Virus record (IMG/VR): IMGVR_UViG_3300009419_000014
Span: 1 to 64,000 of that record
Reading direction: 5' to 3' (one strand)
Source of the DNA: a virus
Length of the DNA stretch: 64,000 bases
The notes below the pieces were generated by a model. That model saw nothing but the letters and a program-made list of their open reading frames with translations, was not told the origin of the DNA and did no database searches. Below are positions 20,206 to 58,913 of the stretch, piece after piece. The position numbers and the translations under genes were made by a program. Within the stretch, counting starts at the first letter, position 1. Each line of letters starts with the position of its first letter.

Positions 20206-20214
20206 ATCAATTCT

Positions 20215-20277
20215 GGACAGCTTATAGCCCTACATATATAGTGCAGGGGTCAGGGAACTGACGCTGTTGATGTGTCC
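20215..20277 (+). ncRNA. Compact structured RNA element, possible three-way junction
   Basis: Between a stop codon and a terminator the 63 bases fold into an outer helix (ACAGC 20217-20221 with GCTGT 20263-20267, or GGACA with TGTCC 20273-20277), a hairpin CCCT...AGGG (20228-20248) and a perfect GTCAG-GGAA-CTGAC hairpin (20249-20262) with a GNRA-type loop. Not a hammerhead: the CUGAUGA and GAAA cores are absent. Could protect the mRNA 3' end or bind a ligand or protein. Confidence 0.5.
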
Positions 20278-20284
20278 TTGTTTT

Positions 20285-20310
20285 GACCGGTAGAAATACC
20301 GGTCTTTTTT
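20285..20310 (+). terminator. Strong rho-independent terminator
   Basis: GACCGGTA-GAAA-TACCGGTC (8-bp perfect stem with a GNRA loop) followed by six T. It ends the early operon 80 bases after the last stop codon. Confidence 0.92.
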
Positions 20311-20312
20311 AA

Positions 20313-20326
20313 CACTATAGGGGGTG
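20313..20326 (+). promoter_or_regulatory. Candidate T7-type promoter core CACTATAGGG
   Basis: Directly after the terminator, CACTATAGGGGGTG contains ten bases identical to the initiation end of the T7 promoter consensus. The phage encodes a T7-type polymerase (RNAP1/RNAP2). The TATAGGG core also occurs in the 16-base repeats at 9322 and 9495. The upstream recognition part of the T7 promoter is not present. It would start transcription of the non-coding unit that follows. Confidence 0.5.
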
Positions 20327-21113
20327 TAATGTGTGAAGAATATTGGGATTAACTTGTGTTGGTGGCGGTGGCAGTAATGTCAGCTACAATGAAGGTTGTT
20401 TAGACTAATTTTATTAAAACCCAGGAATATTAGCAAATGAAACAACATCGACTGATTTAGCCTACTACTGGCATCGTAAGTAGTAAGTCCATTATGAAAT
20501 TAACTGTTTTGGTGTACATACAGCTTGTTAAAAAACTCAACCTTGGTTACTGGTTTAAATAACCCAGAAATACTTATACTAGGTTTTTAGGTATTTCTGT
20601 CTGGTGTTTACATCTTAAATCATTGTGTACTTGTTCTCATGCCTAGAGATAAGTGGTGATGTAAACATCAGACAGAAGTATCAAGGTGCTTCATGTGTAA
20701 CATCGCCATGCGCGATAAAGATGGTGTCCCAGCAGATGATGGTAATCCACGCCTTGTAACGGGAAGCTGAAGCCTTTGCTGACAGTAAAGGACGTTGATA
20801 AGCGGTAATAATGTCTGCAACTGATGGTTGTCAACCTCTAAGACGATTGAATCAGTACGGTTAATAATGCTACTTCATTATTAACGCTGGATAACGTAAC
20901 CAGCAACTTTAGTTTATTGGTTTGGTGTTTTAGATGCGTGGACGGGAAGCGTTCGATTCGCCTGAGCCTTGGTGGCCTGTAAGCGAGTTTAAAGCATCAA
21001 ACCAATGAGCTGAATGCGCAGGTCATGCTGTTAAGCAAACCCGAAGCCTTTCCGGTTTGGTGCTATCGCAGAGATAGCCAGCTCATTGCCTATTATGGAA
21101 CCTTTATGGTTCC
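20320..21113 (+). ncRNA. Large structured non-coding RNA, about 0.8 kb
   Basis: No frame longer than about 25 codons is convincing, yet the sequence is full of long complementary arms. CAGAAATAC pairs with GTATTTCTG (20565-20573/20591-20599). A 16-bp helix joins 20599-20614 to 20658-20673 with one G-U. GTTAATAAT pairs with ATTATTAAC (20860-20868/20877-20885). A 16-bp helix joins 20916-20931 to 20991-21006 with two G-U. A perfect 10-bp helix joins 21003-21012 to 21079-21088 and encloses two further hairpins. The unit is bounded by a terminator on each side and starts at a T7-type promoter core. Size and ornate folding recall the GOLLD and ROOL classes of phage RNAs; whether it belongs to either cannot be told by eye. 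No tRNA found in it. Confidence 0.65.
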
Positions 21114-21125
21114 TTTTTGTTTTTA
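21097..21125 (+). terminator. Rho-independent terminator closing the non-coding unit
   Basis: GGAACC (21097-21102), loop TTTAT, GGTTCC (21108-21113), then TTTTTGTTTTT. Its stem is only 6 bp, but the T tract is long. Confidence 0.88.
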
Positions 21126-21137
21126 AGGAATCCATAA

Positions 21138-48828: not shown

Positions 48829-49025
48829 TTAAAACTATCAGGAAGATAATTCTTGGTATTTTTGGTGGAGTGGCTATCGTTTTACTGATAGCCGCTATAC
48901 TTGCTGCTATATGGGTTGCTGCTTACATTGGTGTAGCAATAACTATCTTCTTAATAGGTTACTTCCTTGTAACCCAGTACATCGAATACAAATCAGATGT
49001 TGTTAAAAAGGTGAATCCCAAATAA
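48825..49025 (+). CDS. Small membrane protein, 66 aa
   Basis: Basic N-terminus, then a long hydrophobic stretch that can form two membrane helices (FGGVAIVLLIAAILAAIWVA and IGVAITIFLIGYFLV), and a polar end. Last rightward gene. Its 3' end overlaps the end of the convergent vRNAP gene by 33 bases, with no terminator between. Confidence 0.7.
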   Translation: MIKTIRKIILGIFGGVAIVLLIAAILAAIWVAAYIGVAITIFLIGYFLVTQYIEYKSDVVKKVNPK

Positions 49026-52000
49026 AGTGTCTACATGATCCAATGGATCAGCAAACTTAGCTTCAATCGTATTTGGCATCACAACTGCACCATCAAATAT
49101 ATCAGCAATGTTTATTCCTAAGATTTGTTGCACTAAGAACAATGACAACACGTTACCAGTTCTTTCTGTTAACTGTCTTAGGATAACTTTCTGAATACGT
49201 ATAAAGAACTTACTAAACATAACTAAACCCATGTCATTCAGATACTGAATACTCTTATGTGTTGGTAAGTCATAGTTAACAAATGTTTCTACAATATTAT
49301 TGATAGAATCTTCCTCACTCATTTTTTGTTTGGTTAAGTTGTGTTGATGCAACGTAAACCGAGCAACAAAGTCACTAATCTGTGTAGCATTACGCATTGC
49401 TTTATAAAGTTGCGTATCATGTGTTACAAACAGAATCTTACTCATGTCTTTGATAACATCAGGTATTTTAGATGTAAGTGGATAAGTTACCTTTTCCAAT
49501 TTACTCTGATAACTGAATGTATCCTCATCCATGTCCACATCTTCAACAATCGTCTGATAAATACCTTCTTGAACCAATGAATAAACTGGGTTTGTGCTAA
49601 TACTGTTTTCCAGTAAAGCAATCTCACGTTTCATCTTGGCAGCTTCAGTAACAGACAGATTATTTTTGTTTTCCAATTCCAACTTCAAACTATCCAACTT
49701 GTTTTTATCTTTCTGGTATTTATTAGCACCTTTCCATGCAATAGAGTGGTACTTAAGAATATCACTGAAAGAAACACCTTCAGTCATCAGTACTGCAAAG
49801 TTAGAGATAACGTTACCAACTAAAGTAGCACCTGTCTTAACAACAATAGTATCTTTAGCCATACGTACAATTTCTTGCCATACTTCTTCACCTTGATGTA
49901 CTAAAGGTTTCTGTAACAACTCAAGTACATGTCTTGCTGCGTAGTTAAGCATCTTGTTCTGTACTTTACTTTGTTCCTGTAGCTTCTCAGCCCACTCACC
50001 CACAGTAAACTTACGGAAACCAAAGATTAAACGTAAGTCTTTCTTCTTAACATATAATCCCTTAGTACCAAATAACTTAGTAGCTTCAATACGCATTTCT
50101 TCTGGAAGAGTAAACCATAACTCTTTCATTGCTGGATCAGTACTGTTAATACCAACTAACACAAACTCTTTAGGTGACTTAACAAACTCTGCATCAAACT
50201 CTTGCTTTAAAGTCTCAACTACAACACTGTTAATTGTTTTAGTATTAGCTTTATCTTTAATTTGTGCAGTCATACCAGATAAAATGTCATCAAAAGAATT
50301 GTGTCTTTTTAACAACTTTTCTTTATTAGCATCTGACATTTCATACCGGTAATTTACTACATCACCATCTAAGTTAAATACAGGTGTTAACAATACAGTC
50401 TTAGTATTACCTGATGCAGTCATACCTACGTTACTTGCAATTTCCATATCTTTATTAATTGCTTGGATATTTAAATAAGCATCCAAACCAATATTAGTAC
50501 TCATAGTATCTTTGTTAACAAAACCATCCAGTATATCTGTACCCATGCTTTGTTTAGAAGTCAGGGATACAATACCAGCAGAGTTAGTTGCTAACTTAGC
50601 AGCAGTGTTACGGTATATCTCCATTTTTGATCCATTAGGATCACGCACATCACCATAGATATATTGTTGAGTTGGTTTGTATCCTGCTTTAACTAACTCT
50701 GCAATTTTAACAAAATCAGTTACGTCAACTACTTGTACTGCAATATTAGGATCAGTAATTTCTTTGACATACCCTTTACGCATCAATGCTGGATTACCAT
50801 CAAAGTTTTCATTACGTGAATCTACTTTGTAGTTACGGTGATGTTCCATAGTAAAACTCAAACCATTGTTGTTTAGTGTTTTACCAGAAGCTACTTCTTT
50901 ATCAAAAATAGATACCACGTTAGCTTTAACTTTAGAATCAACTAAGTTCAGAGCCATTAAAGTAACTAATTCATCAACATCTTTTTCTAATTGGTTGTTG
51001 TCTACCTTATTATCTTGCATACGTTTCTTGATAATTGGATTACCAAAGCCGTTAGCAATTTGATAAGCATTCAATCCTTGATTACCACGAATCTCAGTTC
51101 CAGTGATCATCTTATTAGATAAACCAGTACTTTGGTCTAATACCCAACGACCAACACCTTGAGTATACGTTTTCTTAATTAAAGCTTGTTTATCTTCAAT
51201 TACTTTAGTTAACTTGGATTCATCTTTTAATAAATCATAGATTTCATCATAAGTGTAACCATATTCCAGTAACGCAGTTAAATCAGTTTTTAATACTGCT
51301 TTAGTAATAGCAGCTTTCTCTTCTTTATTTAAAGTGTAGCTGTACTGCTCATTAAGAGTATTCTTAACAGTAGTTGCTACATGCTTACGTAATTGGTCAA
51401 TATGTTTATTAGATAAACGTAATAACTTATGCCAGTGTTTATTTTTAGATGTAACACCTGCAATTTCCTGAGCTAACGACAAAGCAAAGTTATCTTGGGT
51501 CATATTTAAACGACTACGTGTTTGACGTAACGCTTTAGCCCAAGTACCTGCTTTACTGTTACCAGCAACAGCAATTGCCTTAGTAGTCACACGAACAACA
51601 GTATTCTTGCTGTTTTTGAATCGTGAGCTATTAGCAGCTGCAACAATCGGTGCTACTACCCATGCTTTAAGCTTAGCGGTTGAGGCTGTGCTGAACGCTA
51701 ACACCGCATCTATACCTTGCATCACTTTGCTTTGATGTTTCACCTGAACGCCAGCCAGAGCCGATACAAGCGTTGCCAACTGAGCATCTACTTTCTTCCC
51801 GGCAATGTTCAACACCCGGTCAGTCAGCTTATCCATAGCAAACTGAATCATGTCCAGTAATGCATTAACTATGCTGTCAAATTTCTGGATTAACCATGTA
51901 TTTGATTTAGTTTTACTGTGTTCTGGTCTTAATTTAGTTTTAAGAGCCATAAGTACATTTGGTTTATTTAATGCTTTCATAAAGGCAGCATTAGTAGTAC

Positions 52001-55000
52001 CAAAGGCAACAAACTCTTCTAACGCACTATTTGTCTTAGTAGTAGTAACAATTCCTGTAGCGGGATCAGTAATCTTACGTACACGTACCGTTGTGTTATT
52101 AAAGATATAATTTAATCTATCTGTAGCATCATCAATCTGTTCTTGTGTTGGATTACTGATAGTATTACCAGCTTGATCCAAAGATAAAAAATCTTTATAA
52201 GTAATGTCACCACTATCCACTAAATCTTTTACTGCGTTGAACATAGCAGTAATACGTTTTACTTCTACAGCACCTGATGATAAAGCATGTCCAATAATGT
52301 TATGGATCATTTCATGTACATAAACTTCTTGTGCAGATAAACCGTACTCAAAATCACCAACACTTGTAGCAATTTCAATTTGGCGTTTACCATTAACATC
52401 CTGCATGAATCTACCACGAGTAGCTTCATCTACAGTACCTAACACAACTAACGTAGGTTGTAATACTTTATTAATCATTTCTGATAAAACAGAACGTAAG
52501 TGTTCTTTATGTTCTGTATTGTCTTCTACACTACCTAATGTTTCCAGTTGATTAAAAATATCCATTGAGTTATCAACAGTTGCGTTATAAGTCTGTGCTT
52601 GTGAAAAGTCTTCAGTTCCTTTAGTTACATCCTGAGAACCTAACAAATCTTTCATTTCCTTAAACACATCTTGTACAACTTCTTCAACAACTACTTCATC
52701 AGTATCAATAACACTATTACCAGTTAAATAAGCACCATTAGGTTTATCATATTGAGATATGGTACTAACTTTTAAAGATGAACGTAACTTATTAGACATT
52801 TCAATATTTAATTCAATCTGATCTTTTACTTCAGTTGGATTAAGTGTTTGATCATATCTATCTGTCATTCTGTTTAATTTATCTTCAATACCATATGCTT
52901 GTGCTGCTTTAATTGCATTATCTAACATTAACTCTACAGAAGTCTCAATGTTATAATTACCCATAACCATTTGGTTATAAGCTTTGTTTATTGCTGTGGT
53001 ATTATTATCAGCATCTGCAATAGTTGAGCCAATAGCATCATGTACGTTCAAGCCAACTACTTCAGACAATGCACCAAACATAGTATGAGCATCCAACATC
53101 TGAACAGCAGTAGGAATACCACTAGCACCCGGTTCTTCTAAAGCAATAGCACTAGCGTTGACAGTACGTTGCTTATTACCGTTACTACCAATTTTACCTG
53201 CGTACTCTTGTACTACAGCAAATGCTTTAGCTTTTGCATCAGTTTTATAACCTTTGCGCTTCTTCTCTTTAAATAACAGAATACCTTCACTGTTATCTTT
53301 AGAAGTAGGAGTAGCAAGTACAGGCCAGTATGGTTTGAGTTGATTAATTAATTCATCACGTTGATCTTTAGATAAACTACTAACACCCAGCTCAGCTAAC
53401 TTATTTTTCTCTTCAATGTCATAAATTTCTTTAAACACACGGAAAGCATAAGTAATAGCTTGGTTTGCTGTTTGACGATTATCAAGCAATCTACCATACA
53501 CAGAATACATAGCATTATCTAATGTAGGGCCATACACCATAGCAATAACATGCTTTAAGCCTTCTTCAGCAGTTACTTTAATTTGCTTACCTTCCATTGT
53601 AGTAATTGTGTATTTATCTTTAATATTTGACAGTTGCCATTCTAATGGACTATCCATATCAAAGTTAGCATTAAACAATACGTTTAAAGCTTTAACGATA
53701 CGTTCTTTGTTATTAGTTCCTTTATTAACATCATTTTCTAATTGATCGTACATTCTTTCAATAATACCATCAGATACTTTATCTAAAATAGAATCTAAGC
53801 CGGCATTATAAATAGATGTCATTGTAGGAGACTTAGCCATATCACGACCAAGCTTTTCAACTTCACCTAATGTATTAGTCAAATCACCTACTAAAGATGT
53901 AATTGCATTTACACCTTCTAAAGCTTTCTCATTTGAACCAAAGAAATTAATTAAATAACCTAATTTCTTAGCTGTACCTTTCTCAGTTTTAAACTTAGCA
54001 AACAAAGTAGTGTACTCAATATCAGATTTACTGATATAGCCTTTTAACTCATTTACGGCAGCACCCCATCGACTAGCAAGTACTTGGTATGAATCCATGT
54101 TACCTTGTTGTGCTTGGTATTCTAAATATGAGCCATATTCATTATTTTCATACACACCTGTACGTTGCATTGCTTGTTTAAACTGTTCTTTAGTTCTTGC
54201 ACCAGCAAACTGCCATAAACTAATTGCTACACCGTTAGCGACACCATCTGATTCAAATAACAGATCTGTTTCAAACACTTTGTTGTTTACTGATTTAGCA
54301 TAAGCAATCAAACCATGATAAGCATGATAATTAGTACCAAGCTTCTTCACAGCATTAACTAATACCTGTTCACTCATATTACCAGCAACAAGCATATCAA
54401 CAGCTGCTTTAACTTCTGGGATAGTTAACTTAGCATTTAAAGCATCATCATTCTGAATGTTTTCCCATTTCAGTTTAATATCGAATGCTTCCATTAATGC
54501 CATACGGAAAGTCTTAATATGAGCATCATTAGTTAAATCAACAGTCTTATTACCATTCTTCAAACCAATTAAACGACGAATCATTTTATTAGTCTGTGGA
54601 TTAATAGTACTGCTCTTATAACCCATACGTAAGTTCTTCCATACCTCTACAGGTAAGTAGAAATCTTTACCATCAGCATTCTTAACAAAGTCATCAAACT
54701 TTTTAATAACACGAGTGATACTCTTGTTATTTGCTGCCATAGTTTCACGTTTACTCACATGAGCATGAGCAATCTCTTCTTCAGTAGCAAAGCCTGCAAT
54801 AGCTTGTTTAGCTTCAACAGATAACTTGTTATATGATTCAAAAGTATCAGCTAATTGCCAAGGTTCTTGACTCATCTTATTAATAGCTTGGTTCTGTTTT
54901 ACTGATTGAGATTGACGACTACGTTTAACTTTCTTACCTTGTTCTTTAGGTTGAACAAGTAAAGGTTCTTTATCTAATGGCTCAATGTCAAAGATGTTAT

Positions 55001-58000
55001 TAATAACTGGTTTAAAACCTTCAATCATATTATCAGGATCATCTTTCTCAGCACGTAACAAATCTTTTGACTTAACAACAGATTCAATCAAATCTTCATA
55101 CTCAAATGACTTACCTGTAGCTTCATCAGTAGCTGTCCACATTTGTGTTACTGGGCGGATATAATGTACTTGTAAATAACCACTTAACTTTTCAGGTAAG
55201 AATTTATCTATAGTAGCTTCATCAAAACCCATTTCTAAATAAGCATCACGACCATAGCTTGTTAATTTCATTAAGCCAGCATCTTCAAGCATAGATACAA
55301 TAAACGTACCTAATGAAGCACTCATTGTTGCTTCTTCTGCTTCAGAGATATTGGTTTTATATTTTAAACCAATAGAACTAACTAACTGATCACCCATTGA
55401 TTCAGCTACTACATTTAAAGTAATACCTACATAACGCATAGCATTACGTATTTGTGGTGATACTTCTTCTTCATCTTCCATGTTTAAGATATTACGAATA
55501 GCATCATCGTCGTTATCTATTAAGTCAGAAGCAGATTCGGTCATATAGTTATAAGCTACACCTGCCATAGCAGTAACCATAGCATCATCTAACTTACCTT
55601 CAGCATTAGTGAAATAACCCATAAAGTTATTATTAACAACCATTGCTTTTTCTGTATAAGGAGCTTTAAATAACTTCTCTACACTTGCTTTAAATTTTTT
55701 ATGGAAATCTACAAAATTATCTAATACTTCTTGGCTTGAGTTACTTTGTACACCAAACTCATCTGAACGTTCTTGAATAGCTTCAATTAAATTACCTGTA
55801 GTATTAAACAAAGTATTTTTATCTACTGTATTAAAGAAACGAGCAATACCATTATCATAAATCTTATTAGTGATTATTGATTTGTTAGCTTTGAAAGCAA
55901 ATACTTTTTTAACTGCATTAGCTCCAGCTACATAATCAGAATCTGTTTCTATCATATCAACAGTACGATTTAATGCATCCTTGGCACCACGAGCATAATT
56001 ACCTACACGTTTACGCGCTTCAGCAATACCTTTGGTTTTTAATGCAGTAAATACATCATTACCAAATTTAACTAATGAATCACGTAATTTTGTTTTATTA
56101 CCATAATTACCAGTAGCTTTAATAGCTTCATTAACTGGTTGTACTACATCTTTGTTAACCAGATCACGTATTTCATTTTTACGTTCTTCTGCTTTCTTAA
56201 GTGCTTCTTCTTTCTGTTCTAACTTCTTCTGTAAACGTTTTTTCTTTTTATTGACTTCTCTTTGTCTATCTTCACGTTCTTTCATACTAATATGAATAGG
56301 CGGTGTAGTTGGTTTTTCTGGTTTAGTTTCATTACTAAAACTATCTGCGTACTCTTCAGCCTCAGATAATTCTTTCTTTACTGGTTCTGTTGTTTCGTCA
56401 GCTTTCGCCTCCGTTGCTGTCGCAGCTTCGCTGCTGGCAACTGGCTTAGCTTCCTCAACAGGAGCAGGCACCGGAGTAGCTACAGAAGCTTCTTTTGGTT
56501 CACCCATAGGAATGCCCGGCTGTGGCTTAGCAACCGCTACAGGCTCTTTTACAGCTTCAGGGATCACAGTAGCTTTAGGTGCTTTAAGCGCCTGTACTGG
56601 CTTACCAGACTGGTGGCCCAATACCGCTGCCATCACCTTATGAGCTTTGTTTAATGCCTTAGCTTCGCTTACAACGAGGCTGACCATACCTGATTTATCT
56701 GAACCACGATGAATAGAATCGGTTGGTTTCAAATTGTATTTAGTTTGGTAGTTCTTAGTGGCTTCTTGGTATCTTTGTGAATTACCTTCACTATTATGAA
56801 GTTTCATCAATGCTGTCATGTCAGCTGCTTTACCAGCTTGCAATGTAGCAAGGTTAGCTAACATATCTGCTGCTTTAGTTGCAGCTTCTACATTACCTGT
56901 GCCAATAGCTGCTTCAAAGCGTCTACGATAATCATTTAAACCTAAAAAGCCTTTACCACCTTTAATTACATCCTGATTAACTTGTTGTGTTGCTTTACGT
57001 GGAATAGCTTCCACTTCTTCAATAGCTTTATTAGCTTCTATTTGAGCATCAACAATACTACGAGTACTTTCAGAAACTACTGGAGCCAATTGAATTAATT
57101 GATCTTGTGTAAATGAATTAGGTGAAGAGCCTAAAGCACGAACAATAGTTCCTTCTTTCTCATCATCAATATTTTCTAAATCACCAATAATAGGATCAAT
57201 CTGATCTTTAACTATTTTATTTTTAACTAACTCAGTTGTCTGAGATAACTCTTGTTGTTCAGTAGATAATTTATCTTTATCTTCTGCTTCTAATGAAGCA
57301 TAGTAATTTCCAGCAAATTCAGCAATCTTAGCTTGCTGTTCTACTGGTACTTTACCTATAACATCATCACTAAGTAACATATTGATTTTTTCTTCCATAC
57401 TAAAATTAGTATTAGAAGTTAATTTATCAAAGTTACCTGTTGTAGCTGCTTCCATTACTTCAGTATTAATTTGTTGAGCATTAGCTAACTTAGTAGCTTG
57501 GTCTTGTACTTTGGCTAAACCCTTATCAACTTTATCAGCTAATACAGAACCAGCATTAGCAGTACCACTTAGAGCAGCGGTACTTACTACAGCACCAGCT
57601 AATCCAGTAGCAACAGCTGAACCTAAGTTCTCTGTTAATGTCTGGTTCTTATCTACATAAGTCTTTTCAGTTAAGTTAGCTACTGTATTACTAGATGCTG
57701 ACTGTAATGATTCTTCTAATGCTTCTTTGCCAATTGCAGTTAAAGTATCTGAACCAACAAATAAATCTTTCTCTAGTTTAGCAGCACCAGTAACTTTACT
57801 TGCTACACCAGCTAATACAGCAGTTAATCCTAAGTTAGATTGAAATACAGAATCAGCAATCATTTGTTTTGCTTTATCTGTACCATACTTATCTTCTAAC
57901 TCTCTGAACTTAGGAGAAGTTTCACGTAATGCACTTGGATCAGTTTCCAGTACTTTTTCTTTCTCAGAATAAGCTTGTGAGAAACCTTCCAGTCCAGCAG

Positions 58001-58913
58001 TACCAATCACTGCACCGGCTTCACCTAACTTATCTAATTTGCCTGAAGCAATCAGTTCAGCAATATCTTCAGGCTTAGCATTCTTAATTGCAGCTTTTGT
58101 TAAACCTTTTGACACAGCAGCAGGTACTGTAAAAGCTAAAGCGGATGAAAGAGCAACATCAGCTAAAGCAGATGGGTTATCAACTAATGCTACTAAGTTC
58201 TCACTCAATTCTGAACCAACAGAACTAGCTGTATCCCACCAAGTAGCTTTATCACCTAAAGCAGCTGTAGCAGTCTCATTTGCTCTCTTAACAGCAGCAA
58301 CACGATCTTGAATATTTTTTTGTTGAGCTTGTACTTTGGTAGACATTTGTTTGTCTAAATCTTCTGCTTTAGGAATAGCAGTGTCTTTACCAAGCACAGC
58401 ACCCATAGCTCGGTTTAATTTATTACCAAAGTTATCTGTAGCACCAGAACCAGCTAAATCAGCAAAGCCTAAAGCCGCTTCACCAATTAAAGAAGCATTC
58501 TTAGCTAAACTTAGTCCAGTATCTGAAGCAATCTCACTAACACTACGATCACGTTTACGTTCATAGTTTTGATTAATTTCAGCTTGTTTTCTTTCATTAG
58601 TAGCACGTTGATTACGTAAGTATTCAACATCAATATCTATTAATGATGTTCCTTCAGGAAAAGACTTTGCAAAATCAACATAAGAAACTAAATCCGTATT
58701 AACTGGTACAGTAGGATCAGTTTCTTGTTTTAATTTAATTTGTTTATTAGTGGAGGCGTTACTAACACTGATTTGTTTGTTAGTAGTGTTTTGAAGTTGT
58801 TGTTGTTTGGTTTGAGAACCAATAACAACTTTTGATTCACGGGTAGGAGTATTACCTTCTGTCAATAACAGTTGGCGCAACTCTTCTCCGGTTTGAGGAG
58901 TGTTGTTTTCCAT
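48993..58913 (-). CDS. Virion-encapsulated RNA polymerase (N4 gp50-like)
   Basis: 3,306 residues, close to the 3,500 of N4 vRNAP, which is packaged and injected with the DNA. The central part holds a T7-type polymerase. Motif A is LLFESDGVANG with Asp1556, motif B has NFFGS with Phe1657/Phe1658, and motif C is NVHDAIGS with His1958 and Asp1959. These positions agree with the N4 core (about residues 998-2103). In N4 the motif B residue is Tyr; here it is Phe. After the polymerase a zinc-peptidase-like HEMIH begins at His2200. The N-terminal 1,000 residues include Ala-rich helices and a Lys/Glu coiled coil (about 870-910). It reads early promoters before host functions are needed. Confidence 0.95.
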   Translation of the reverse strand: MENNTPQTGEELRQLLLTEGNTPTRESKVVIGSQTKQQQLQNTTNKQISVSNASTNKQIKLKQETDPTVPVNTDLVSYVDFAKSFPEGTSLIDIDVEYLRNQRATNERKQAEINQNYERKRDRSVSEIASDTGLSLAKNASLIGEAALGFADLAGSGATDNFGNKLNRAMGAVLGKDTAIPKAEDLDKQMSTKVQAQQKNIQDRVAAVKRANETATAALGDKATWWDTASSVGSELSENLVALVDNPSALADVALSSALAFTVPAAVSKGLTKAAIKNAKPEDIAELIASGKLDKLGEAGAVIGTAGLEGFSQAYSEKEKVLETDPSALRETSPKFRELEDKYGTDKAKQMIADSVFQSNLGLTAVLAGVASKVTGAAKLEKDLFVGSDTLTAIGKEALEESLQSASSNTVANLTEKTYVDKNQTLTENLGSAVATGLAGAVVSTAALSGTANAGSVLADKVDKGLAKVQDQATKLANAQQINTEVMEAATTGNFDKLTSNTNFSMEEKINMLLSDDVIGKVPVEQQAKIAEFAGNYYASLEAEDKDKLSTEQQELSQTTELVKNKIVKDQIDPIIGDLENIDDEKEGTIVRALGSSPNSFTQDQLIQLAPVVSESTRSIVDAQIEANKAIEEVEAIPRKATQQVNQDVIKGGKGFLGLNDYRRRFEAAIGTGNVEAATKAADMLANLATLQAGKAADMTALMKLHNSEGNSQRYQEATKNYQTKYNLKPTDSIHRGSDKSGMVSLVVSEAKALNKAHKVMAAVLGHQSGKPVQALKAPKATVIPEAVKEPVAVAKPQPGIPMGEPKEASVATPVPAPVEEAKPVASSEAATATEAKADETTEPVKKELSEAEEYADSFSNETKPEKPTTPPIHISMKEREDRQREVNKKKKRLQKKLEQKEEALKKAEERKNEIRDLVNKDVVQPVNEAIKATGNYGNKTKLRDSLVKFGNDVFTALKTKGIAEARKRVGNYARGAKDALNRTVDMIETDSDYVAGANAVKKVFAFKANKSIITNKIYDNGIARFFNTVDKNTLFNTTGNLIEAIQERSDEFGVQSNSSQEVLDNFVDFHKKFKASVEKLFKAPYTEKAMVVNNNFMGYFTNAEGKLDDAMVTAMAGVAYNYMTESASDLIDNDDDAIRNILNMEDEEEVSPQIRNAMRYVGITLNVVAESMGDQLVSSIGLKYKTNISEAEEATMSASLGTFIVSMLEDAGLMKLTSYGRDAYLEMGFDEATIDKFLPEKLSGYLQVHYIRPVTQMWTATDEATGKSFEYEDLIESVVKSKDLLRAEKDDPDNMIEGFKPVINNIFDIEPLDKEPLLVQPKEQGKKVKRSRQSQSVKQNQAINKMSQEPWQLADTFESYNKLSVEAKQAIAGFATEEEIAHAHVSKRETMAANNKSITRVIKKFDDFVKNADGKDFYLPVEVWKNLRMGYKSSTINPQTNKMIRRLIGLKNGNKTVDLTNDAHIKTFRMALMEAFDIKLKWENIQNDDALNAKLTIPEVKAAVDMLVAGNMSEQVLVNAVKKLGTNYHAYHGLIAYAKSVNNKVFETDLLFESDGVANGVAISLWQFAGARTKEQFKQAMQRTGVYENNEYGSYLEYQAQQGNMDSYQVLASRWGAAVNELKGYISKSDIEYTTLFAKFKTEKGTAKKLGYLINFFGSNEKALEGVNAITSLVGDLTNTLGEVEKLGRDMAKSPTMTSIYNAGLDSILDKVSDGIIERMYDQLENDVNKGTNNKERIVKALNVLFNANFDMDSPLEWQLSNIKDKYTITTMEGKQIKVTAEEGLKHVIAMVYGPTLDNAMYSVYGRLLDNRQTANQAITYAFRVFKEIYDIEEKNKLAELGVSSLSKDQRDELINQLKPYWPVLATPTSKDNSEGILLFKEKKRKGYKTDAKAKAFAVVQEYAGKIGSNGNKQRTVNASAIALEEPGASGIPTAVQMLDAHTMFGALSEVVGLNVHDAIGSTIADADNNTTAINKAYNQMVMGNYNIETSVELMLDNAIKAAQAYGIEDKLNRMTDRYDQTLNPTEVKDQIELNIEMSNKLRSSLKVSTISQYDKPNGAYLTGNSVIDTDEVVVEEVVQDVFKEMKDLLGSQDVTKGTEDFSQAQTYNATVDNSMDIFNQLETLGSVEDNTEHKEHLRSVLSEMINKVLQPTLVVLGTVDEATRGRFMQDVNGKRQIEIATSVGDFEYGLSAQEVYVHEMIHNIIGHALSSGAVEVKRITAMFNAVKDLVDSGDITYKDFLSLDQAGNTISNPTQEQIDDATDRLNYIFNNTTVRVRKITDPATGIVTTTKTNSALEEFVAFGTTNAAFMKALNKPNVLMALKTKLRPEHSKTKSNTWLIQKFDSIVNALLDMIQFAMDKLTDRVLNIAGKKVDAQLATLVSALAGVQVKHQSKVMQGIDAVLAFSTASTAKLKAWVVAPIVAAANSSRFKNSKNTVVRVTTKAIAVAGNSKAGTWAKALRQTRSRLNMTQDNFALSLAQEIAGVTSKNKHWHKLLRLSNKHIDQLRKHVATTVKNTLNEQYSYTLNKEEKAAITKAVLKTDLTALLEYGYTYDEIYDLLKDESKLTKVIEDKQALIKKTYTQGVGRWVLDQSTGLSNKMITGTEIRGNQGLNAYQIANGFGNPIIKKRMQDNKVDNNQLEKDVDELVTLMALNLVDSKVKANVVSIFDKEVASGKTLNNNGLSFTMEHHRNYKVDSRNENFDGNPALMRKGYVKEITDPNIAVQVVDVTDFVKIAELVKAGYKPTQQYIYGDVRDPNGSKMEIYRNTAAKLATNSAGIVSLTSKQSMGTDILDGFVNKDTMSTNIGLDAYLNIQAINKDMEIASNVGMTASGNTKTVLLTPVFNLDGDVVNYRYEMSDANKEKLLKRHNSFDDILSGMTAQIKDKANTKTINSVVVETLKQEFDAEFVKSPKEFVLVGINSTDPAMKELWFTLPEEMRIEATKLFGTKGLYVKKKDLRLIFGFRKFTVGEWAEKLQEQSKVQNKMLNYAARHVLELLQKPLVHQGEEVWQEIVRMAKDTIVVKTGATLVGNVISNFAVLMTEGVSFSDILKYHSIAWKGANKYQKDKNKLDSLKLELENKNNLSVTEAAKMKREIALLENSISTNPVYSLVQEGIYQTIVEDVDMDEDTFSYQSKLEKVTYPLTSKIPDVIKDMSKILFVTHDTQLYKAMRNATQISDFVARFTLHQHNLTKQKMSEEDSINNIVETFVNYDLPTHKSIQYLNDMGLVMFSKFFIRIQKVILRQLTERTGNVLSLFLVQQILGINIADIFDGAVVMPNTIEAKFADPLDHVDTLFGIHLFNNI

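Follow-up and report, generated by a model that had tools for sequence, protein, structure and literature searches.

About 800 bases at positions 20313-21125 of the viral DNA stretch analysed here (64,000 nucleotides; hereafter the window) lie between two genes and seem to hold no protein gene of their own. What, then, does this DNA encode? A preliminary description had proposed an ornate non-coding RNA bounded by two terminators, either of a new class or a divergent member of the large phage RNAs GOLLD or ROOL. We compared the locus with other phages and examined its folding, its coding content and its relatives.

The locus and its boundaries

The window derives from a virus record of 73,253 bases. 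N4-type phages provide the best match to its DNA polymerase (46-47% identity), and it contains an ORF of 3,306 aa at 48993-58913, comparable in length to the virion RNA polymerase of N4. The unit sits in a small-gene region, between two genes that have no known function or close relatives, with a dUTPase-like gene upstream. Its outline is as follows.

20214..20242, plus strand: best promoter-like site before the unit, sigma-70-like TGGACA-17-TATAGT; weak, and upstream of the first terminator
20285..20310, plus strand: rho-independent terminator just upstream of the unit (stem 20285-20304 plus T tail)
20313..21125, plus strand: full extent of the large non-coding RNA (ORF-free; fold z -5.4; homologous core on the same strand)
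20313..20322, plus strand: CACTATAGGG, where transcription may start; occurs exactly only once in the window
21097..21121, plus strand: rho-independent terminator of the unit (stem 21097-21113 plus T tail)

The claim that these bases hold no believable protein gene is borne out by ORF, Pfam and PHROG checks alike. No ORF of at least 60 aa was present on the plus strand of 20206-21137. The stop-to-stop pieces examined from the gap gave 0 Pfam family matches, and their sole PHROG match had an E of 0.1. A decayed protein gene with incidental structure could account for some protein-like fragments, few in number and spread over different frames, but stops occur in all frames, and we rejected this explanation given the lack of a Pfam or significant PHROG match among the stop-to-stop pieces.

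Both bounding terminators are present, but the first is probably not part of the unit and instead closes the transcript before it. The 5' start of the RNA is a provisional placement, and its 3' end would lie at the second terminator. Sigma-70-like sites numbered 10, against 16.9 expected in shuffles. The stretch 20249-20310, which follows the promoter-like site at 20214-20242 and ends in a terminator, may be a separate small RNA or a read-through leader. The CACTATAGGG string noted at the start of the unit is real, but it stands alone; we discarded it as a repeated phage promoter, since matches with one mismatch are no commoner than chance.

Folding of the unit

As would be expected of the RNA that had been proposed, the unit folds far better than shuffled sequence. 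The folding energy of the whole unit was -258.9 kcal/mol (z -5.4; 20 shuffles), and the segment 20592-21012 reached z -8.8 (100 shuffles). The reverse strand of the unit gave z -3.8. When 110 segments of 400 nt were sampled from the 64 kb, the background averaged z -1.6 and the best value fell within the unit (20801, z -5.7). Outside the conserved core, which is treated below, the following elements were predicted.

20394..20564, plus strand: 5' domain with a 14-bp closing stem, 20394-20407/20551-20564 (pair probability 0.89)
20590..20682, plus strand: 25-bp stem upstream of the core, 20590-20614/20658-20682 (pair probability 0.98)
20860..20904, plus strand: 10-bp hairpin, then TAACGCTGGATAACGTAAC (20882-20900), which matches siphophage TAACACTGGATATTACGTTAC
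20908..21014, plus strand: hairpin with a 31-bp stem (pair probability 0.98), containing T-arm-like GCGTTCGATTCGC and no tRNA
21034..21088, plus strand: 3' hairpins 21034-21045/21050-21061 and 21062-21067/21073-21078 (from pair probabilities)

Five long helices had been described in the unit, and this fold retains or enlarges three of them. The 16 bp reported at 20599-20673 form the inner part of the 25-bp stem (mean pair probability 0.98), the helix at 20860-20885 has 10 bp rather than 9 (0.96), and the 16 bp at 20916-21006 are a portion of the 31-bp stem 20908-20939/20983-21014 (0.98). The other two exist but have stronger competitors. The 9-bp helix at 20565-20599 is partly excluded by the better 25-bp stem, as both need 20591-20599, and the 10-bp helix at 21003-21088 is in part incompatible with the lowest pairs of the better 31-bp stem. 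The 3' hairpins are enclosed by this alternative 10-bp pairing to 21079-21088.

The GCGTTCGATTCGC at the tip of the 31-bp hairpin (20951-20967) has the look of a tRNA T-arm; it is perhaps the trace of a lost tRNA and could be due to chance. For the 5' domain (20394..20564), and for the first 400 nt of the unit altogether, no clear homologue was found.

A conserved core in Vibrio phages

The preliminary description had looked to related Schitoviridae for homologues. No counterpart of the gap was found in named Schitoviridae. In tblastn searches against INPHARED, one flanking protein had no match, and the other was matched over no more than 29% of its length, by two Alishewanella phages. Viral contigs searched by flanking protein and DNA polymerase yielded no useful relatives. 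The homologues of the RNA were found in other phage groups. By blastn, window positions 20718-20774 matched an ORF-poor non-coding gap of about 42 Vibrio siphophages, and a more sensitive local search extended the match to 20811 (20718-20811). These siphophages have genomes of 59-62 kb, in which the RNA is flanked by the major capsid side and by the neck genes and runs antisense to both. Around the RNA, most of the siphophage copies that we inspected show a TTGACA-17-TAGATT promoter together with a GC-rich terminator, GCCCGCTTCGTGCGGGC. The IMG/VR contigs L106 and L108 are further carriers of the siphophage-type RNA.

We built a covariance model (R1) from 14 relatives, with the window left out. 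R1 found the window core on the plus strand with 38 bits and a rough E-value of 2.1e-7, covering model positions 1-149. This was its single match in the whole 64 kb, and a scan of 420,909 bases of other loci gave nothing at E <= 1. The core is composed as follows.

20716..20858, plus strand: conserved core (R1, 38 bits, E 2.1e-7)
20740..20753, plus strand: core motif TGGTAATCCACGCC, with P2 (TGG/CCA) and the first strand of P3 (R1 alignment)
20773..20791, plus strand: helix P5, variable in sequence, CCTTTGCT/AGTAAAGG in the window (pair probabilities, relatives)
20789..20811, plus strand: core motif AGGACGTTGA-N5-GGTAATAA (motif scans, R1 alignment)
20820..20856, plus strand: helix P6, outer ACTGAT/ATCAGT and inner GGTTGTC/GACGATT, with a GA bulge on the 3' side (pair probability 0.94-0.95)

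Window and siphophages such as 1.012.O (MG592397) also have a common order of parts: the core, a GTTA..TAAC hairpin and then TAACRCTGGATA..ACGTNAC. The local alignment score of the CTGGATA..ACGTNAC motif after the hairpin in the window was reached by 1 of 500 shuffles; the motif is absent from view in some clades. The alignment of the siphophage 3' tail with the 3' end of the window was not significant. At the place of the 25-bp stem, siphophages have a clamp helix, GTCAGTTAA/TTAACTGAC, around a tRNA-like or another module, and at the place of the 31-bp hairpin, just past the motif, they have one or more downstream tRNAs or other modules. Judged by position, the two long hairpins of the window would stand in for these siphophage inserts.

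Some loci have additional features. In two siphophages (L039, 1579-2016; L136, 1154-1591) the RNA region encloses a gene for a protein with a DNA-binding domain of the T5-Orf172 type; in L039 this gene takes the place of the core, and it is possibly a homing-type insertion. Several tiny hypothetical proteins that public records annotate antisense through the RNA in L029, L032, L135 and L141 are probably spurious.

Several candidates were rejected as homologues. L119 looked alike but sits in a gene, and four loci from a genome-contig scan had neither blastn similarity to the RNA nor an R1 match. Degenerate motif scans of viral contigs returned mostly chance matches in coding-like sequence, and among plasmids the matches were short and confined to the query's tRNA-like part.

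Covariation in the core

The covariation analysis used an alignment of 24 matches (20 distinct), window included, fitted to the model. Standard pairs occupied 96.2% of the pair cells. Both sides had changed in 10 of 38 pairs, which none of 500 shuffles reached, and sliding the partners by 1-3 columns left just 1-4 such pairs. The both-side changes stem from few lineages, because most siphophage sequences are close relatives. Over the family as a whole, 5 of the 6 outer P6 pairs differ at both positions: the helix reads GTATAG/CTATAC in siphophages versus ACTGAT/ATCAGT in the window. P5 reads CGC/GCG, AAGA/TCTT, CGAG/CTCG or AGGGT/ACCCT in relatives. Thus, in the family alignment, P5 and P6 are kept despite sequence change; the window versions have 8 bp in P5 and 6+7 bp in P6, with pair probabilities of 0.88-0.95. 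The proposed CCC/GGG extension of P1 and the outer part of P4 were without support, and P3/P5 of L140 were misplaced by the aligner.

Covariation, which the preliminary description had named as the evidence that would support an RNA, is therefore present, in relatives outside the Schitoviridae. A conserved protein frame across the gap was also looked for and none was found; the core has 1-base indels between relatives. Such frame-breaking indels alongside kept helices, as well as the covariation itself, speak against a decayed gene, an explanation that we now find hardly credible.

Modules shared with distant relatives and the link to ICP1

More distant cores occur in temperate phages of V. 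anguillarum (VPBES, H8; L140) and in the IMG/VR metagenome contig L063, which was returned by two separate motif scans. They read TAATCCRCGCC ... GACGTTGA, the TAATCCRCGCC of the core motif being kept, and have a tRNA-Arg on the same strand. R1 scores them weakly (L140, 12 bits; L063, 8 bits). In pairwise shuffled-alignment tests, z was 12.9 for L001 and the window, 10.5 for L001 and L063, 8.8 for L106 and L140, and 5.9 for L063 and the window, with 0 of 1000 shuffles reaching the score in each case. The gaps of 1.012.O and of H8/VPBES are thus like the window in their homologous core, and they differ from it in having tRNAs in most cases, other flanking genes and no similarity to the 5' domain. 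No description of the tRNA-bearing gap of the Vibrio siphophages or V. anguillarum phages was found in the open literature, the search covering few subscription papers.

L063 has a further module in common with the large Vibrio phages 11895-B1, IBT_VpB-34 and CoeS_P1 (E 1e-11 for L063 and 11895-B1). Other modules connect two of these phages to the long RNA of phage ICP1, which 11895-B1 matches over 182 nt (71%, E 7e-23) and CoeS_P1 over 86 nt (86%, E 1e-18). A module shared directly by the window and the ICP1 RNA was not found, and ICP1 searched with R1 gave no match above noise (10 bits); the chain therefore runs from the window through L063 and 11895-B1 to ICP1. The ICP1 long ncRNA has about 800 nt, is the most abundant ICP1 transcript by RNA-seq and has no known function (Barth 2020, PMC7567579). 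Its expression is robust over the whole course of infection, and related phages have conserved it (Boyd 2021, PMC9040626).

Other shared pieces were seen among these phages. IBT_VpB-34 has two related RNA regions (L184, L188) near the record ends, which share modules with ICP1, 11895-B1 and CoeS_P1; the second has an ICP1-like piece. A module of 110-160 nt, about 71-89% identical, is common to temperate phages of V. anguillarum, phage 13VV501A of V. vulnificus and some siphophages (L140, 2501-2661; L040, about 1935-2096; L034, about 1380-1505; L029). Its place within the RNA differs from phage to phage, so modules are mobile. Upstream of the tRNA-Arg in L140, about 2665-2790, is a sequence that resembles a tRNA interrupted by a long insertion and that the Rfam tRNA model does not call; a weak YrlA (Y RNA-like) score overlaps it.

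The long inverted repeats of the unit might instead act as DNA hairpins in an origin of replication or a site for packaging. This idea gains some weight from N4-type phages, whose virion RNA polymerase makes use of DNA hairpins. On the other hand, the helices show wobble-compatible changes, relatives have a promoter and terminator around the RNA and tRNAs on the same strand, and the linked ICP1 locus has RNA-seq evidence (PMC7567579). A DNA-level feature is accordingly very improbable.

tRNAs and alternative functions

Most relatives have tRNAs inside or beside the RNA and on its strand. Those within siphophage RNAs are Tyr, Ser, Val, Gly, Gln, Trp and Met, and Arg completes the types over all relatives. 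No tRNA was found in the window or the whole 73-kb record, and in some relatives none was called by ARAGORN. These observations indicate that tRNAs are a common but not a defining feature of the class.

Could the RNA be a tRNA carrier or precursor, its helices placing tRNAs for processing and shielding them? The window copy would then have lost its tRNAs and be a remnant or a cargo-less scaffold. The position of the tRNAs, inside the RNA and on its own strand in most relatives and sometimes clamped by a long helix, fits this function. However, the core is conserved in the tRNA-less window, a covarying core is not needed for such a role, and the module-linked ICP1 reportedly lacks tRNAs altogether (PMC7567579). 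We therefore consider it unlikely.

A regulatory RNA, which would be long and act in trans, as an antisense RNA or by sponging up RNAs or proteins of the host, with structure mainly for stability, would suit the antisense orientation to the head/neck operon in siphophages, and abundant ncRNAs of Vibrio phages and satellites are known (PMC7567579). Nevertheless, the location varies by phage group (structural operon, repressor region, near lysis genes, small-gene region), so there is no common cis target, and the large covarying core exceeds what base-pairing regulation needs. This function appears rather unlikely.

A proposed mosaic class of phage RNAs and its relation to GOLLD and ROOL

With homologues, covarying helices and no conserved protein frame, the proposal of a large structured non-coding RNA, possibly of a new class, holds up well. 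That the unit is a real structured RNA homologous to Vibrio phage RNAs is, in our judgement, nearly certain. Our preferred reading is broader. The plus strand would encode a single large non-coding RNA with extensive structure, belonging to a class of mosaic Vibrio-phage RNAs that has not yet been filed. Members of the class would keep a short 3' motif and a core of ~145 nt made up of helices P1-P6, and the rest would consist of exchangeable modules and insert slots, filled by tRNAs in most relatives and probably by long hairpins instead in this N4-like phage. The RNA would work like GOLLD and ROOL, as an abundant infection-time transcript folding into a stable, perhaps multimeric scaffold that displays or holds cargo and may benefit the phage; its size, complexity, tRNA slots and phage origin, like those of GOLLD and ROOL, suggest such a scaffold or particle role by analogy. 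Taken as a whole, this reading of a new mosaic class with a GOLLD/ROOL-like infection-time scaffold stands slightly below an even chance. It is possible, though doubtful, that the RNA is a new machine distinct from GOLLD and ROOL, a multimeric RNA-only particle carrying tRNAs or other cargo, whose exchangeable modules and slots have spread among Vibrio siphophages and temperate, ICP1-like and N4-like phages.

GOLLD and ROOL are elaborate large phage RNAs without a known job, and a further class, independent by the tests made, is added to them here. Phages that have names and can be cultured carry this class, and through it the unexplained long RNA of ICP1 becomes connected with a wider mosaic family. 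As modules and tRNA slots are swapped between relatives, they offer natural experiments on which parts are essential.

The Rfam scan of the window found no family at threshold, and in the relatives scanned tRNA alone reached it. GOLLD is a 14-mer RNA nanocage. Both GOLLD and ROOL form RNA-only cages, and GOLLD has a variable region, sometimes with an internal tRNA (PMC12286853). The latter, together with equal size, style and tRNA association, would be consistent with the earlier suggestion of a divergent GOLLD or ROOL that the Rfam models miss. Targeted searches speak against it: RF02032 and RF03087 matched 0 of nine records at E <= 1 and had no match listed in the window gap at E <= 10, a negative that is not absolute because both models were without a positive control here. 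We regard this relationship as improbable.

Among known systems, the ICP1 long ncRNA (gp139-gp140 gap) resembles the window RNA as an ORF-less phage RNA of about 800 nt whose modules recur in 11895-B1, CoeS_P1 and IBT_VpB-34, which in turn share another module with the core-bearing L063; it differs in having no directly shared module and no R1 core and in lying near lysis genes. ROOL (RF03087) is similar to the window class in size, complexity, phage origin and closeness to tRNA islands, the difference being that the window class has no Rfam match. The likeness to GOLLD (RF02032) extends to size, complexity, phage origin, tRNAs near or inside the RNA and the presence of a conserved and a variable part, whereas the window class, again without an Rfam match, is set apart by a central conserved core and by modules exchanged between phages.
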